DNA from: a virus | Length of the DNA stretch: 35,622 nucleotides | Virus record (IMG/VR): IMGVR_UViG_3300031788_000061 | Span: 1 to 35,622 of that record | Reading direction: 5' to 3' (one strand) | Shown here: positions 10,913-17,286 of the stretch, one piece after another | Numbering within the stretch: position 1 is the stretch's first letter | Layout of the letters: each line of letters begins with the position of its first letter | Position numbers and translations under genes: made by a program | Notes under the pieces: model-generated | The model's database searches: none | Seen by the model: the letters and a program-made list of their open reading frames with translations, nothing else | Told to the model about the DNA's origin: nothing

Positions 10913-11824
10913 ATGAAACTGAATCTACTGAAACGAAAAGGTAAGCTCTCGATTGCCAGCCGCGACAGCGGTCTGCTGCACAAGTCGAAGATACGACTCA
11001 CGAAGATTTCGGAGTCTGTTAGGCGGGAGCAGCTAAAGAGCGCCCCGGTGGAAGTCGTCGCCAAGAAGCGCGACGAGGAAGTTCGTCCAGCCTCACGAGT
11101 GAAGCTGACGATTACCCGCAAGGCCCACTTCAAAGAGCCCGACGCGGATTTAACGTTAAATTCCGATGCGGCGTTAAAGGAAGCCGGTCGCCCCGCGGAG
11201 CAGGTCCTATGGAAAGCGAGACGCCTCCACGGACGTCACCTGCCCTCGCTTCAGTGCAATGCGTGCTCAATAAGCCGCGTGTGCCCCAAGTTTAAGGCGG
11301 GATACGAGTGCGCGTTCCTCCCGTACCTGAACTCGCACAAGGTCGAGACACCAGCCGACCTAGTGAAGTACATGAAGCTGATGGTGGGGAACTCGATGAA
11401 GCGGGCGCAGCTAATGTCGATCATCGAAACCGCCAACGGCGGCATGCCATCCACCGAGACGAGCGAGTCCCTTGCGCTAGCGTTCCAGCAGTTGCGCGAC
11501 CTTCACGAACTGATGAGCGCGAACGAGGAGGAGACAGTCACGTTGGAGGGAGACGCGACGATTGTCGGACAGATATTTGGCGGCATGAAACTAGAGACGA
11601 TGGTCAAGGAGACTGCCGACATGAAGCAGAATGAGCCGCAGCTAGCTCTCCCCGAAGTGCCTCTTGCGCAGGGCGATATAATGGCCCCGCGCCCAGCAGA
11701 CATATCGGAGGAACTGATACGTGATGCAGTGTTGGGATCGACTGTTGTGATTGATTCAAAAAAAGGCTTGCCAAAGCCCGCCATAGCAAGCATCCATCAA
11801 TCAGAAGTTACCCGAACCACATGA
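10913..11824 (+). CDS. Cysteine-cluster protein upstream of terminase (possible small terminase subunit), 303 aa
   Basis: The first 75 residues are basic and probably disordered (KLNLLKRKGKLSIASR). Around residue 115 is a cysteine cluster: CNAC, then CPKF, then ECAF (C-x2-C-x6-C-x8-C). A helical region follows (ADLVKYMKLMVGNSMKRAQL, LAFQQLRDLHELM). A cluster of this form followed by helices resembles small proteins encoded just before large terminases in several phages, so small terminase or packaging accessory is a reasonable guess, not a firm call. Palindrome copy 6 lies inside the coding region (encoding DLTLN). The stop overlaps the next start (ATGA). Confidence 0.7.
   Translation: MKLNLLKRKGKLSIASRDSGLLHKSKIRLTKISESVRREQLKSAPVEVVAKKRDEEVRPASRVKLTITRKAHFKEPDADLTLNSDAALKEAGRPAEQVLWKARRLHGRHLPSLQCNACSISRVCPKFKAGYECAFLPYLNSHKVETPADLVKYMKLMVGNSMKRAQLMSIIETANGGMPSTETSESLALAFQQLRDLHELMSANEEETVTLEGDATIVGQIFGGMKLETMVKETADMKQNEPQLALPEVPLAQGDIMAPRPADISEELIRDAVLGSTVVIDSKKGLPKPAIASIHQSEVTRTT
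11148..11161. promoter_or_regulatory. Start-associated palindrome, copy 6 (inside a gene)
   Basis: Exact ATTTAACGTTAAAT within the gene 10913-11824. It is followed after 4 nt by an out-of-frame ATG that meets a stop after three codons. It is the only copy inside a coding region, yet it keeps the usual spacing to an ATG. Confidence 0.85.
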
Positions 11825-12326: not shown

Positions 12327-12725
12327 ATGCCAGCACCTTTCACTTCCGACAATCTCACGAAGTCCACGATGTCCCGGGCCGACCAGTCTGCCGTCAATTT
12401 TGACCAGCAGACCAACGACCTTGTTTCGACCAGCCACAGGACGAACTACGAGACGAACATTTCCTCGGCCACATTCAAGAAGCAGCAGGGTCTAGTACGT
12501 CCCGAGCTTTCCTCGCAGGACGCATTCCTGCTAGGGGCCAGCCAGATACAGACTCCCGAAGCTGCCATCGACTCCGCAGAGGAGAACGACGATGTTTCAG
12601 GTGTCGCGGGAGGCTCCCCCGGCTCTGGGATGGGGTCGCCCGACTCCAGTGACGCTACGGATAAGGTCATTCCGCGTGGTGGTAAGTCAAACTACACCAC
12701 TGGGAAGAATGCCCTCCGTTACTAA
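12327..12725 (+). CDS. Hypothetical protein, 132 aa
   Basis: No family is recognised. The protein is polar and rich in Ser, Thr, Asn and Gln, with little hydrophobic core (MSRADQSAVNFDQQTNDLVS), an acidic stretch (DSAEENDDVSG) and a Gly/Ser/Pro run before a basic end. It starts Met-Pro after a leader without a Shine-Dalgarno sequence and overlaps the terminase gene by 17 nt. The composition would suit a virion-associated or scaffold-like protein, but that is speculative. Confidence 0.55.
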   Translation: MPAPFTSDNLTKSTMSRADQSAVNFDQQTNDLVSTSHRTNYETNISSATFKKQQGLVRPELSSQDAFLLGASQIQTPEAAIDSAEENDDVSGVAGGSPGSGMGSPDSSDATDKVIPRGGKSNYTTGKNALRY

Positions 12726-15237
12726 GCCTGCTCCGAAAGCTAAGCCGGCAGTTCCGGCCATTCTCAATCAGACAACCGGGGCGCAAATCCCGGTTGTTCC
12801 TTTGGGAGATGTAGTGCTGCGCATACTCGCGTTGGCACAGGCCCTCTGTGAAAAGAAGTTTTACCCTTACCAAGTCCAGTTCGCTTACAGGCTCATCGAG
12901 AGCGTCCTTCTTCGTGACGGCAACACGATCACCGCACTGCTAGCCCGTCAGTCCGGCAAGTCCGAAGCTATTGCCGCCACGATCTCCGCGCTGATGGTGA
13001 TGCTGCCTGTGCTAGCTAAGCAATACCTGAAAGACTGGCGCTTCAACCTTACTGACGACGAGGGTCGCTACCGTGGATTCAAGAATGGCGTCAAGATTGG
13101 CATCTACGCCCCGAAGCTGGCGCAGTCCGAGATCATGTTCTCTAGGGTCAAGATGTTTTTCGAGACGAAGACATCGAAGCAGATTCTCTCCGAACTCAAT
13201 CTCATCGTAGAGGTCGCCAATGGGGATACCGTCCGACTCTCCAGCGGAAGCCGTCTGATATGTCAGACCGCTTCAGAGAATGCGAAGATCGAAGGCGAGA
13301 CTCATCAGATACTTGTAGCAGAAGAGGCCCAGGACATTTCGGACAAGAAGATCAAGAAGTCCCTGTCGCCCATGATCGCCTCCACGAAGGGGACGATGGT
13401 TATGATCGGAACCGCGACCACGAAGCGTTGCACCTTCTACGAGACGATCAAGCACAACGAGCGCATGGAGCTGGCGGGACATAAAAGGAACAACTTCTTC
13501 TACCCGCACGAGATTTGCTCCCGATACAACTCTCTGTACAGGGAGTACATCGAGGGGCAGAAAGCTCAGATAGGCGAGACGAGCGACGAGTTCCAGATGA
13601 GCTACGGATGCAAGTGGCTCTTTGAGCGTGGAATGTTCGTGACGCAGGAGCAACTGTTCAACGTAGGCATTGCCCTGAAGTCCGGGGAGCTGTTCTCGAA
13701 TCTTTACTACAACTCAGGGGACGCCCAAGCCATTCCGCAGAACTACTCCATCGTGGCGGGAATAGACTGGGGCCGCGACCACGACTCGACTGTGCTCACG
13801 CTAGTTGCCGTGGACTGGTTTAATCCTGTGCAGACGTTGAACAACAACTCCGTGCATGGGATGGAGCCCTCCGAGTTGTACAAGCGCCATGTGATTCTTT
13901 GGCGTGAGTGGTTCGGCGACAACTACGAGACGCAGTTCGAGGAGATCAAGAACTTCCTATTCTCTTGGGGCATTCGCCTGGCGAAGATAGTCACCGACTC
14001 CAACACAGCAGGTAAGCCGATCTATGATCGCCTGTGCTCAGTGTTTGAAGACAGGAACGTCGAGGTCACGGACTTCAACTTCTCTGCGAAGGTCAAGTCG
14101 GACGGATACAAAGCGTTCTATCAGGAGATATGCGGCCGTCGCCTCACGTTCCCCGCTAATCCCAACGTTCGACTGACGAACGAGTATCGGCGCTTCATCA
14201 ACCAGATGCTCGACTTGCGCAAGAGCTACAAGAACGGACTGATGAGCGTTGCGCACCCGGACGAGAAGCACGCCCATGACGATTACTGTTTTCCAGCTTA
14301 CGCACCTGTCATAACTGAATCTGGCGAGATTCCCATTTCAGAGATTCGAGCAGGCATGAAAGTTTTAACTTCTCAAGGATTTAAGAAAGTCCTTTGGGCA
14401 AAAAAGACAGGATTAAAAAAGCTGCATCGAATTGGAAATTTTATTGGCACAGCGAATCATCCAGTAAAGAAAGACAACATGTACGTGAGACTTGATTCGC
14501 TCATGTTGGATGACATAGTATCGGTATGCCAAAAAGAGAAACAATTATCGTCGACGGAATCAGCTTCCACCGTTACCCGGAGTCGAAAAGGCGGCAGCAT
14601 AGGGAGTATTTTTGGGCACACACTAAGTGGCAGCAGCCGCCTTATTCGCTCCATGTATACTTATGGAGGAAGCGTCACGGACCAATTCCTAAAGGATTTG
14701 TCGTTCATCACATCGACGGCGACGGGAGTAACAACCGAGATTCCAACCACGGCTTGCTGCGAAGAGGAGTTCATCAGAGCCTACACGCTTCGGAGCCAGC
14801 AAGAATTAAAAAAGCCAAACAGAATATCAAATTGGCTCAGAAAGCAGCAATGGCTTCTGGCTGGCATAAATCCCCCGAAGGTAGGAAGTTTGCTAGGGAG
14901 AGATTCAAAAAACAGTACGAAGCAATTAAGCCTAGAAAGCTTAGATGTTCAGAATGTGGAACGGCGTATTGCACAAAGTGCCAAGGAAAGTCTTTCACTT
15001 GCTCCAATCGCTGTGCGGCACGTCGTTGGCGACGAACGCACAATAAGTGATTTTGAAGTCTCCCCGGAAGCGTTAGTTCCGGTTTACAATCTGGAAGTTG
15101 AAGACGCACACGAGTATGTGTGTCAGGGCGTCCTCGTGCATAACTGTGACAGCACGATGATGGCTGTATGGGGAACTCTGCTACAGAGCCAGAATGTTGA
15201 GGTTGACTTCTCGGACTCCAACATGTTCATTCGGTAA
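12709..15237 (+). CDS. terL: Terminase large subunit interrupted by an intein
   Basis: The DNA-packaging motor. After removal of the intein the protein is about 556 residues, normal for the family. The ATPase has a Walker A-like ARQSGKS (residues 79-85; the conserved R-x-x-GKS form) and Walker B ILVAEE (201-206). The RNase H-like nuclease has GIDWGRDHDS (D353), VTDSNTAGKP (D430) and a third acidic motif HAHDDY-CDS. The intein (residues 527-812, 14287-15144) is inserted exactly in that last motif, before a Cys that becomes the first residue of the C-extein. Start 12709 (MPSVTK) is preferred over 12592, which would lie inside the previous gene. The following gene begins after palindrome copy 7. 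Confidence 0.93.
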   Translation: MPSVTKPAPKAKPAVPAILNQTTGAQIPVVPLGDVVLRILALAQALCEKKFYPYQVQFAYRLIESVLLRDGNTITALLARQSGKSEAIAATISALMVMLPVLAKQYLKDWRFNLTDDEGRYRGFKNGVKIGIYAPKLAQSEIMFSRVKMFFETKTSKQILSELNLIVEVANGDTVRLSSGSRLICQTASENAKIEGETHQILVAEEAQDISDKKIKKSLSPMIASTKGTMVMIGTATTKRCTFYETIKHNERMELAGHKRNNFFYPHEICSRYNSLYREYIEGQKAQIGETSDEFQMSYGCKWLFERGMFVTQEQLFNVGIALKSGELFSNLYYNSGDAQAIPQNYSIVAGIDWGRDHDSTVLTLVAVDWFNPVQTLNNNSVHGMEPSELYKRHVILWREWFGDNYETQFEEIKNFLFSWGIRLAKIVTDSNTAGKPIYDRLCSVFEDRNVEVTDFNFSAKVKSDGYKAFYQEICGRRLTFPANPNVRLTNEYRRFINQMLDLRKSYKNGLMSVAHPDEKHAHDDYCFPAYAPVITESGEIPISEIRAGMKVLTSQGFKKVLWAKKTGLKKLHRIGNFIGTANHPVKKDNMYVRLDSLMLDDIVSVCQKEKQLSSTESASTVTRSRKGGSIGSIFGHTLSGSSRLIRSMYTYGGSVTDQFLKDLSFITSTATGVTTEIPTTACCEEEFIRAYTLRSQQELKKPNRISNWLRKQQWLLAGINPPKVGSLLGRDSKNSTKQLSLESLDVQNVERRIAQSAKESLSLAPIAVRHVVGDERTISDFEVSPEALVPVYNLEVEDAHEYVCQGVLVHNCDSTMMAVWGTLLQSQNVEVDFSDSNMFIR
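14287..15144 (+). mobile_element. Intein in the terminase nuclease motif
   Basis: A 286-residue protein-splicing element. It begins with C1 (CFPAYAPVIT, block A). Block B is GTANHPV (T55, H58), and the end of the N-terminal splicing half is LDSLMLDDIVSV (residues 69-80). The C-terminal half is VYNLEVEDAHEY (block F, H275) and GVLVHN (block G, H285, N286), followed by C+1. All residues needed for standard splicing are present. The middle (about 81-252) shows no homology in this frame, but carries the HNH gene in another frame. The region is visibly richer in A and T than the flanking terminase, which fits acquisition by transfer. Confidence 0.9.
14526..15050 (+). CDS. HNH homing endonuclease nested out of frame inside the intein
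   Basis: A 174-residue protein read in a different frame from the terminase and intein. It has an N-terminal domain (residues 8-50, including YSLHVYLWRKRHGPIPKG), the HNH core VVHHIDGDGSNN (H61, H62, N70) with later His (H83, H87), and a C-terminal zinc-ribbon-like region (CSEC, CTKC, CSNRC followed by ARRWRRTHN). This matches freestanding phage HNH endonucleases. It starts with Met-Pro directly after the N-terminal splicing half of the intein and stops just before block F. It would cut intein-free terminase alleles and so spread the intein. No Shine-Dalgarno sequence is evident, so how it is translated is open. Confidence 0.87.
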   Translation: MPKRETIIVDGISFHRYPESKRRQHREYFWAHTKWQQPPYSLHVYLWRKRHGPIPKGFVVHHIDGDGSNNRDSNHGLLRRGVHQSLHASEPARIKKAKQNIKLAQKAAMASGWHKSPEGRKFARERFKKQYEAIKPRKLRCSECGTAYCTKCQGKSFTCSNRCAARRWRRTHNK

Positions 15238-15239
15238 AA

Positions 15240-15253
15240 ATTTAACGTTAAAT
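15240..15253. promoter_or_regulatory. Start-associated palindrome, copy 7
   Basis: Exact ATTTAACGTTAAAT extended to a perfect 18-bp palindrome (15238-15255). It lies between the terminase stop and the portal ATG at 15256, leaving only 2 nt to the start. Confidence 0.85.
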
Positions 15254-15255
15254 TT

Positions 15256-16968
15256 ATGCCCGTCTCACCCTCAGACATCGCGCTGCTTCAGATCAAGCGC
15301 CGGAACTTCATCGGAAATACCGACAAGTACCTTCCGTACCGCTCCAGCCCCGCGACAGTCATGGACGCGATTAGGGACGAGTTCGCGTTCCTTAACGTAG
15401 TCGGTGACGCAGGAATCTACAACGAGCTGTACCGCGAGACGGCGATGCAGAGGATCAACCGCTACAAGCGGTTTGCTCGCATGTACGAAGGCAAGCAATA
15501 CGAGAACGAATGGGAGGACGGCGAGCGCAAGCCCATCTTCAACTTCTGTCAGGTCATCTCCGACAAGAGCGTAGATTTTTTTGCGGAGAAAGGGTTCACT
15601 GTTGGGTCGGACGCAGGCAACGAGGACCTCGCCGCCGCAGTCGATTACATCTGGCATGTGAATGAGAAGGACTCCCTGCTGCGCAAGATAGGCATCTGCG
15701 ACAGCGTGATGGGCGACAGTTTCGTCTACCTCACGTTCGAGTCGAAGGACGAGAAGGGTAACGACCTGCCGCGCAATCAGTGGAAGATGCGCATGTTCGA
15801 GATCGACCCGTTCTTCTGCTTCCCGGTGTTCGACGACATCAACCTTCACGAGATGAAGGCGTGCATGTTCCAGATTCCAATTGCCAAGGACGGCAAGGGT
15901 GCTGTGTCCTATCGCACGCTGTACATCACTCCGACGAAGTGGCAGGAGGTCATCGACGGTGTAGTCGGCCCCGAACAGCCCAACCCTTTTGGATGCGTCA
16001 ATGTCGTTCACTTCCCGAACTATGACGACCCACTGAAGATTTGGGGCCAGAGCGATCTGGAGTCCATCTGTTCTCTCAACGAGGAGTACAACATCATCGC
16101 TAATAGCGTACGGAAGATCATCAAATACCATGCTGAGCCAACAACTATCATTTACGGCGCGCGTGCGTCTAAGTTGGAGAAGGGTGCTAAGAAGGTGTGG
16201 TCTGGACTCCCCATCGGTTCTAAGGTGGAGAATCTGGCTTTCACTGCGGATCTTCGCGCAACTTACGAGTATCTTAAGCTGATCGAGGACAACATTCACA
16301 AGATTTCAGGTATCCCGTCCGTGCTGTTCCAGACGGACAGGGCAGTGTCGCATACGAGCGCCATTGCGATGAAGATGCTTTACCAGCCGATCCTAGAGAA
16401 GACGGCTCGCAAGCAGCAGTCATTCACTTCGTCGTTCCGCCGCATGACGAAGCTCATCTTTAGAGGCTTCGACATTGTAGGGTTCGACTACAGAGGGCTC
16501 ACGGGCGCGAAGGAGATTCGCACGACCGACCTGTTTCCTGTATTCCCCGACCCGCTTCCGTTTGATGAGTCCGCGATGGTGGACGTCGATACCAAGAAGC
16601 TCAACATGAGAGTTACCAGCCTCGCCGCCCTCATCAGGAAGTACAACCCGAGCGGAAACCTCGACAAGATTACCGCCGAAGTCATCGCGGACCAGATCAG
16701 CGAGCTTCTACAGAAGAAGGAGCAGGCCGTCGCGATGCAGGGCAACACCCCGAAGCCGGGAGCGATCCTCACCTCCTCGCTAGGCATGGACGAGACGATC
16801 CAGTCCCTCGCTCTTGAGATTTCCGACCTCTCCACTGCCAATGCCCTCGCTGAGGAAGACAAGCAGAGGGCGATGGACGCTGAAGCGGCCGCATTGCTCC
16901 CCGGTGCGTCCGGTCCGATTGATTCAGGTCCTCCCTCGCCCGGTGCTGAGGGTGGAGACAACTCGTAA
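15256..16968 (+). CDS. Portal protein
   Basis: At 570 residues, directly after terminase, this fits a portal of the SPP1 gp6-like group. Features include an N-terminal helical region (YKRFARMYEGKQYEN), FNFCQVISDKSVDFF near residue 95, GDSFVYLTFESKDE near residue 155, and a central stretch of AVSHTSAIAMKMLYQPILEK that resembles the long stem helix region of portals. The C-terminal 60 residues are low-complexity Ala/Pro/Gly/Ser. Portals form the dodecameric ring through which DNA enters and to which neck proteins attach. The ATG follows palindrome copy 7 by 2 nt, with no Shine-Dalgarno sequence. Confidence 0.85.
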   Translation: MPVSPSDIALLQIKRRNFIGNTDKYLPYRSSPATVMDAIRDEFAFLNVVGDAGIYNELYRETAMQRINRYKRFARMYEGKQYENEWEDGERKPIFNFCQVISDKSVDFFAEKGFTVGSDAGNEDLAAAVDYIWHVNEKDSLLRKIGICDSVMGDSFVYLTFESKDEKGNDLPRNQWKMRMFEIDPFFCFPVFDDINLHEMKACMFQIPIAKDGKGAVSYRTLYITPTKWQEVIDGVVGPEQPNPFGCVNVVHFPNYDDPLKIWGQSDLESICSLNEEYNIIANSVRKIIKYHAEPTTIIYGARASKLEKGAKKVWSGLPIGSKVENLAFTADLRATYEYLKLIEDNIHKISGIPSVLFQTDRAVSHTSAIAMKMLYQPILEKTARKQQSFTSSFRRMTKLIFRGFDIVGFDYRGLTGAKEIRTTDLFPVFPDPLPFDESAMVDVDTKKLNMRVTSLAALIRKYNPSGNLDKITAEVIADQISELLQKKEQAVAMQGNTPKPGAILTSSLGMDETIQSLALEISDLSTANALAEEDKQRAMDAEAAALLPGASGPIDSGPPSPGAEGGDNS

Positions 16969-16980
16969 CTAAACGTCGAA

Positions 16981-17286
16981 ATGAAAAACACACGTCCCAG
17001 AGACACCAGCGCCAACCGCGCACGCACAGACAAGAATCCCGCTTTCCAGCGTTTTGGAAAAGCAAACGGAGCACACAAGCACGGATCGAGCCAGCATGCC
17101 TATCGCCTCAAGGCGGGAGCGAAGCCAAACGAGGTCGTGCATCATAAGAACCACAACCACATGAACTCCGGTAGGAGTAACCTCGCTGTTCTGAAGAACA
17201 CGCCGGGGTCGAGTGCGATGGCAAAGCACAACAAGCTTCACCCTGAGAAGGGTCGTAAGGCGGCAGCCGCGCGTAAACGTGGTTGA
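16981..17286 (+). CDS. Small HNH-motif protein beside portal, 101 aa
   Basis: A very basic protein with an HNH-like core: EVVHHKNHNHMNSGRSNLAV (His pair, Asn, then NL), followed by SAMAKHNKLHPEKG with the downstream His. The pattern VHHKN...N.....NLxVL...H is typical of small phage HNH nucleases. HNH proteins next to terminase and portal take part in DNA packaging in several phages (known for HK97-type systems), so a packaging role is more likely than homing. No zinc-binding Cys pairs are present. It starts 12 nt after the portal stop, and a promoter-like TTGACA overlaps its stop codon. Confidence 0.7.
   Translation: MKNTRPRDTSANRARTDKNPAFQRFGKANGAHKHGSSQHAYRLKAGAKPNEVVHHKNHNHMNSGRSNLAVLKNTPGSSAMAKHNKLHPEKGRKAAAARKRG

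Follow-up and report, generated by a model that had tools for sequence, protein, structure and literature searches.

Fractured genes, in which split inteins of the gp41-1 type occur with a free-standing nuclease gene, were reportedly described by Dassa et al. 2009, and a 2025 preprint is said to deal with actinobacteriophage inteins of 'non-canonical architecture', possibly overlapping prior art. Out-of-frame nucleases inside phage genes have also appeared in print. A 2015 paper mentions that, in all brucellaphages, a putative intein in terL encodes an HNH out of frame (PMC4422536); this report is one passing statement, without analysis of splicing motifs, selection, expression or family. A 2025 paper on 'ShiLan' describes out-of-frame HNH insertions in mycobacteriophage methylases, for which no intein or intron splicing domain was found (PMC11855218). 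Among open-licence papers we found no prior description of a class of such inteins, its selection pattern, an embedded promoter signal or a version with a Vsr-like nuclease. The initial annotation of the locus described here had claimed that no well-described case of a complete out-of-frame gene within a contiguous intein was known. That claim is qualified by the single passing mention in brucellaphages, and the arrangement is a widespread class and not peculiar to this locus. The overprinted-HNH intein was previously glimpsed and is here found to be widespread.

The DNA analyzed (hereafter the window) is a viral sequence of 35,622 nucleotides, IMG/VR record IMGVR_UViG_3300031788_000061. It contains a terminase large subunit (TerL) gene with the following features, all on the plus strand.

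12592..14286, plus strand: N-extein of TerL (PHROG terminase match of 1.4e-25 over the whole ORF; homologues L247-L249 at 52-56% identity)
14287-15144, plus strand: intein of 286 codons (C1, block B T55..H58, H285-N286, C+1)
14287..14525, plus strand: N-terminal splicing region of the intein (C1, block B T55..H58, through LDDIVS)
14492..14519, plus strand: promoter-like element within intein coding sequence, consisting of TTGATT (14492-14497), 16 nt, TGaCATAGT (14511-14519), then 6 nt and the ATG, the A of which would be +1
14526..15047, plus strand: stop-free linker, the DNA of the HNH gene read in the intein frame, predicted to be unstructured (pLDDT <50 at intein residues 85-164)
14526..15050, plus strand: HNH homing-endonuclease-like gene, ATG to TAA, 174 aa, in the -1 frame relative to the intein
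15073..15144, plus strand: C-terminal splicing blocks F/G of the intein (VYNLEVEDAHEYVCQGVLVHN; pLDDT 95)
15145..15237, plus strand: C-extein of TerL, starting at Cys+1 (CDSTMMAVW...), where empty-site homologues have PDS

The positions of the ORFs, the splicing blocks and the complete 174-residue HNH protein with its own start and stop had been proposed from the letters alone, and each was confirmed. The terL ORF (12592-15237) is a single stop-free frame of 881 aa that is open across the whole intein. An ATG near 12709 may be the true TerL start. The gene that follows encodes the portal protein (PHROG, 1.5e-39). A small ORF after the portal gene (16981-17286) carries an HNH-like motif (VVHHKNHNHMNSGRSNL), matches the PHROG 15471 HNH at 0.006 and is a possible second, free-standing HNH relative. 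Elsewhere in the window, positions 10913-11824 hold a queuine tRNA-ribosyltransferase-like gene (PHROG 887, 7e-13), possibly serving DNA modification or host takeover. No nucleotide-level relatives of the window were found among GenBank phages.

The intein frame matches Hint and intein models weakly (Vint, 1.7e-5; Hint_2, 2.9e-5), and the intein C-terminus model TIGR01443 passes its cut-off. AlphaFold2 predicts a Hint core formed by residues 1-83 and 263-286 with pLDDT 92-97. The best matches to this core in a fold search of the PDB are inteins and Hedgehog autoprocessing domains, and the nearest solved intein is gp41-1 (profile 1.5e-17, fold 4.3e-5). The element has the marks of a class 1 contiguous intein: a nucleophile at residue 1, the block B T..H, a C-terminal HN and C/S/T at +1, together with a predicted Hint fold and precise insertion in a conserved TerL motif. 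Residues C1, G13, T28, G31, T55 and H58 show no variation in alignments of 37-40 inteins.

The window reads HAHDDY-[intein]-CDS where its nearest intein-less TerLs (L247-L249) read HAHDDY-PDS, and the insertion point is therefore fixed exactly. Empty sites are uninterrupted, with HDDY-PDS or HDDY-ADS in these homologues and in the Streptomyces phages LuckySocke and BRock. The site, HDDY^C, is within the nuclease domain of TerL, at its conserved, Asp-rich motif. Reading the insert as a group I or group II intron was rejected: no Rfam intron family, and hence no ribozyme core, was matched in a scan of 12500-15700. Two TerLs of Bacteroides or human-gut phages that are related to that of the window (L250, L251) carry in-frame inteins, apparently of LAGLIDADG type, elsewhere in TerL.

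The HNH frame matches HNH_3 (PF13392) at 1.1e-10, above cut-off, and the PHROG 15471 HNH endonuclease at 2.1e-20. Residues H61, H62, N70, N74 and H83 and four zinc-ligand cysteines (CxxC pairs) are invariant in the family, so the gene combines the HNH_3 motif with the zinc-binding elements of HNH homing endonucleases. Its predicted fold has a mean pLDDT of 92. Its top hit by fold, a weak one, is the homing endonuclease I-HmuI (E 0.056, probability 0.90).

We searched for similar loci from two seeds, a frame-blind HNH profile and an intein profile, and scored candidates with HMMs for the N block, the C block and the HNH. This yielded 152 contiguous inteins with an HNH of the window type, 124 of them distinct (<95% nt identity), so the overlap proposed for this terminase recurs in many others. 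The HNH is offset by +2 (that is, in the -1 frame) in 124/124 distinct loci and in frame in none, whereas a canonical endonuclease-containing intein carries its nuclease in the Hint frame. By strict criteria, 59/80 loci from the frame-blind HNH-seeded search overlap out of frame and 0 are in frame. The family includes the GenBank phages Highwayman (Acinetobacter), TJE1 (Tetrasphaera) and LS06 (Rhodobacteraceae), and GTDB genome bins add further members. Its loci are phylogenetically non-independent, with few well-supported inner branches in the HNH tree, and the locus counts therefore overstate the number of independent events.

Across the family, C1 is present in 121/122 inteins, the final Asn nearly always, and C/S/T at +1 in 121/122. 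TerL insertion sites vary (HDD^, HDDY^, N-x-H^, DFGFT^ and others). The HNH start is mostly at the end of the N-terminal splicing region and the HNH stop codon mostly within block F, where the conserved Tyr-Asn can supply it, for example as TAT|AAT; the space between the splicing blocks is therefore taken up by the nuclease gene. Four ORFs contain two inteins each (L052, L111, L166, L186), and in L111 and L186 each intein has its own out-of-frame HNH.

The overlap is not an artifact. Two IMG/VR contigs (L001, L002) have zero differences from the window over the whole intein, with one mismatch each outside it, and an assembly slip is therefore ruled out. Together with the -1 frame conserved in 124 loci, this identity led us to reject a sequencing or assembly frameshift, and it excludes compensating indels that would restore one frame.

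Both frames were analyzed for selection in 13 pairs of related loci. Omega is 0.18-0.32 for the HNH and 0.62-1.08 for the linker as translated in the intein frame. Within the overlap, the first, second and third HNH codon positions carry 324/231/594 differences, and the third HNH positions are the second positions of intein codons. The HNH is the constrained protein, under purifying selection, and the near-neutral linker is nearly free in sequence except that it must stay open. These observations bear on whether the locus could be a degenerate intein, a former in-frame HNH intein that was frameshifted and is now decaying in both frames. In-frame HNH inteins do exist on a distant branch, in ribonucleotide-reductase-like genes. 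Decay is nevertheless extremely improbable given the purifying selection on the HNH, the intact catalytic and splicing residues, the same frame in 124 divergent loci and the identical DNA in three contigs.

The initial annotation put the chance of an open intein frame at about 3 in 10,000, which is too small. When the HNH protein is encoded by random synonymous versions with local codon usage, the window has a probability of 0.075 of an open intein frame, with 2.1 stops expected. The window locus alone is only mildly unlikely by chance; the family makes the case overwhelming. Random synonymous recoding of the HNH gives 4.4 expected intein-frame stops per locus, and log10 P(open) sums to -269 over the family loci, which are non-independent. 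HNH codon pairs that create a stop in the intein frame number 0/3473 in overlapping genes versus 54/404 in free-standing and fractured relatives; the zero arises partly by construction, because an open intein frame was a selection criterion for the overlapping genes, and the informative side of the comparison is the free-standing relatives and the few fractured loci. The other alternative frame would carry 16.3 stops per locus under synonymous recoding, and this difference in stop load accounts for the exclusive use of the -1 frame.

Downstream of the last HNH-frame stop and ahead of the HNH core, 113/123 loci have an ATG; synonymous shuffling of the intein codons predicts 47. We considered whether programmed -1 ribosomal frameshifting from TerL might instead reach the HNH and yield a TerL-N/IntN-HNH fusion with no free nuclease. 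The constant -1 frame is the commonest direction of frameshifting, but it is already accounted for by the stop load (4.4 versus 16.3). An HNH-frame stop between the intein start and the HNH in 121/123 loci would leave only a short zone for the shift, and frameshifting has no need of the retained ATG. The free-standing HNH relatives are ordinary genes. We regard frameshifting as very unlikely and favor initiation at the internal ATG.

How this ATG might be used is suggested by the intein codons just before it. An extended -10 element (TGn plus >=5/6 of TATAAT) is found exactly 6 nt before the start in 21/106 loci versus 4.0 expected (maximum of 10 in 1000 simulations), and among spacings of 3 to 12 nt none of the others yields a match. 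The same element with a -35-like element, at the same exact spacing, occurs in 20 loci versus 4.2 expected. Loci with a strong motif include L086, L131, L138, L179 and L007. Of the Ile codons that underlie the -10, 27/30 are ATA, compared with 541/1707 elsewhere in the same ORFs. In standard numbering, the 6-nt spacing sets +1 on the A of the ATG and thus points to a leaderless mRNA. The promoter-like element of the window scores 10 versus a synonymous-shuffle mean of 7.8 (p=0.08). Judged from these sequence patterns, leaderless expression from an embedded promoter is moderately likely for the group of loci carrying the signal; for the window copy, with its weak signal, it is unproven. Shine-Dalgarno sequences were rejected as a general expression mechanism, as their enrichment is weak family-wide (at least 4 nt: 42% versus 30%; combined p not significant).

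A second class of overprinted intein carries a zinc-finger plus DUF559/Vsr-like nuclease in the +1 frame of the linker. It was found in the TerLs L005/L006 and in phage helicases. The helicase cases are in the cultured phages CP-T1, MR14, Vibrio 1.194.O and 104E43.1, with the intein after the Asp-Glu of the DECH/DEAH motif. The nuclease genes, all in the +1 frame, are located as follows.

L256, 2015-2752: DUF559/Vsr-like nuclease
L257, 1967-2716: DUF559/Vsr-like nuclease
L258, 1943-2731: DUF559/Vsr-like nuclease
L259, 1857-2537: DUF559/Vsr-like nuclease
L005/L006, 5242-5832: DUF559/Vsr-like nuclease

DUF559 matches range from 3e-6 to 8e-12, above cut-off, and in all pairs identity is higher in the nuclease frame (0.44-0.59) than in the intein frame (0.22-0.34). 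A search of viral contigs for relatives of the Vsr-like nuclease returned only the two seeds; the helicase cases came from phage records. These nucleases are unannotated in GenBank, where the CP-T1 and MR14 records say only 'putative helicase'. Since the two classes differ in both nuclease and frame, out-of-frame nucleases have joined inteins at least twice.

The HNH family also links to other ARRANGEMENTS. Free-standing members lie beside intact terL/terS in phages PAE1, CL2, BP10, EauM-23, Shemara and SN1. Others separate the two halves of fractured terL genes (L108, L110, L114, L094, L067, L199, L207, L211, L212, L215). The order in these genes is TerL-N plus IntN ending in linker, then the HNH gene, then IntC plus TerL-C where detected. 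In the HNH tree, the free-standing and fractured types mix with the overlapping type. Our search for HNH homologues in frame with an intein returned only distant ones, in ribonucleotide-reductase-like (RNR-like) genes of bacterial and archaeal MAGs (L225, L226, L232, L234, L236, L238, L239), and these form a separate branch (SH-aLRT 94).

Kala et al. 2014 reportedly described HNH proteins of HK97 type as terminase packaging cofactors. The HNH of the window could be such a cofactor that happens to sit in an intein, and the free-standing relatives by terL/terS are indeed in intein-less phages. We consider this unlikely, as the HNH occupies the usual endonuclease site of inteins, has a homing endonuclease as its best fold match, and is dispensable in the nearest TerLs, which lack the intein. 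Furthermore, the unrelated Vsr-like family has the same arrangement in helicases, which package no DNA.

Anatomy, structure prediction and conservation in 124 divergent inteins support the proposal of a contiguous intein with a nested, out-of-frame HNH homing-endonuclease gene. The element is very probably a contiguous class-1-type mini-intein in TerL whose linker is overprinted, in the -1 frame, by the gene of an HNH homing nuclease; we infer splicing, nuclease production and homing from the families involved. In one frame, translation of TerL would run on across the intein, and the Hint domain would excise itself and restore TerL. Other ribosomes would start at the internal ATG and make the 174-aa HNH, encoded by the same DNA, as a free nuclease. 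In some members of the family its mRNA would probably be leaderless and transcribed from the embedded sigma70-type promoter. When phages co-infect a cell, the nuclease would cut those terL alleles that lack the intein, and the intein would be copied in during repair.

A plausible but unproven path begins with a free-standing, terL-associated HNH that came to lie, out of frame, in a mini-intein linker; if that linker later acquired a stop, a fractured gene with a split intein would result. More generally, overprinted inteins may form an ancient class with at least two unrelated nuclease families (HNH_3 in -1, DUF559/Vsr-like in +1) fully overlapping the linkers of contiguous inteins in several phage genes. 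In some HNH members the nuclease would be expressed from a sigma70 promoter embedded in intein codons, with +1 on the start codon and hence a leaderless mRNA, and the class would be the natural intermediate on the way to fractured genes, and to split inteins accompanied by free-standing nucleases. We see the case for and against this general proposal as evenly balanced. With contiguous-overlapping, fractured and free-standing forms of one HNH family at terL, nuclease gain and loss and the origin of split inteins become testable. The family also offers a large natural collection of fully overlapping genes under asymmetric constraint: selection acts on one frame, and the other has only to stay open. 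Overprinted nucleases escape standard annotation, as in Vibrio phage CP-T1 and Pseudomonas phage MR14.

The brucellaphage case shares with the window the terL host gene and an HNH nested out of frame in a putative intein; compared by its published description only, it differs in its longer HNH (a 687-nt ORF) (PMC4422536). ShiLan likewise is a stop-free insertion that interrupts a phage gene and carries an HNH out of frame, and it is presumed to be a homing element. However, that insertion is thought to remain in the methylase, with no splicing domain in the host frame, whereas the HNH of the window is surrounded by a complete Hint domain (PMC11855218). Large inteins such as PI-SceI and the RNR-like HNH inteins (L225-L239) share the Hint domain and the usual nuclease position, but their nuclease is in the same frame and polypeptide, and the RNR-like HNHs are on a separate branch. 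The fractured genes of gp41-1 type include the closest solved intein, and the same HNH family lies between fractured terL halves. In such genes the host gene and intein are divided between two ORFs, whereas in the window TerL and intein share one and the nuclease gene overlaps completely. I-TevI and I-HmuI (the nearest solved fold) in phage group I introns are free nucleases made from a self-removing element, as proposed for the window. Here, however, removal would be at the protein level, the linker must stay translatable, and no intron was found. Intein theory regards the homing endonuclease as one domain within the intein polypeptide. In this locus, splicing and homing would be two genes on one stretch of DNA, and could therefore be expressed, timed and lost independently, yet they are genetically inseparable.
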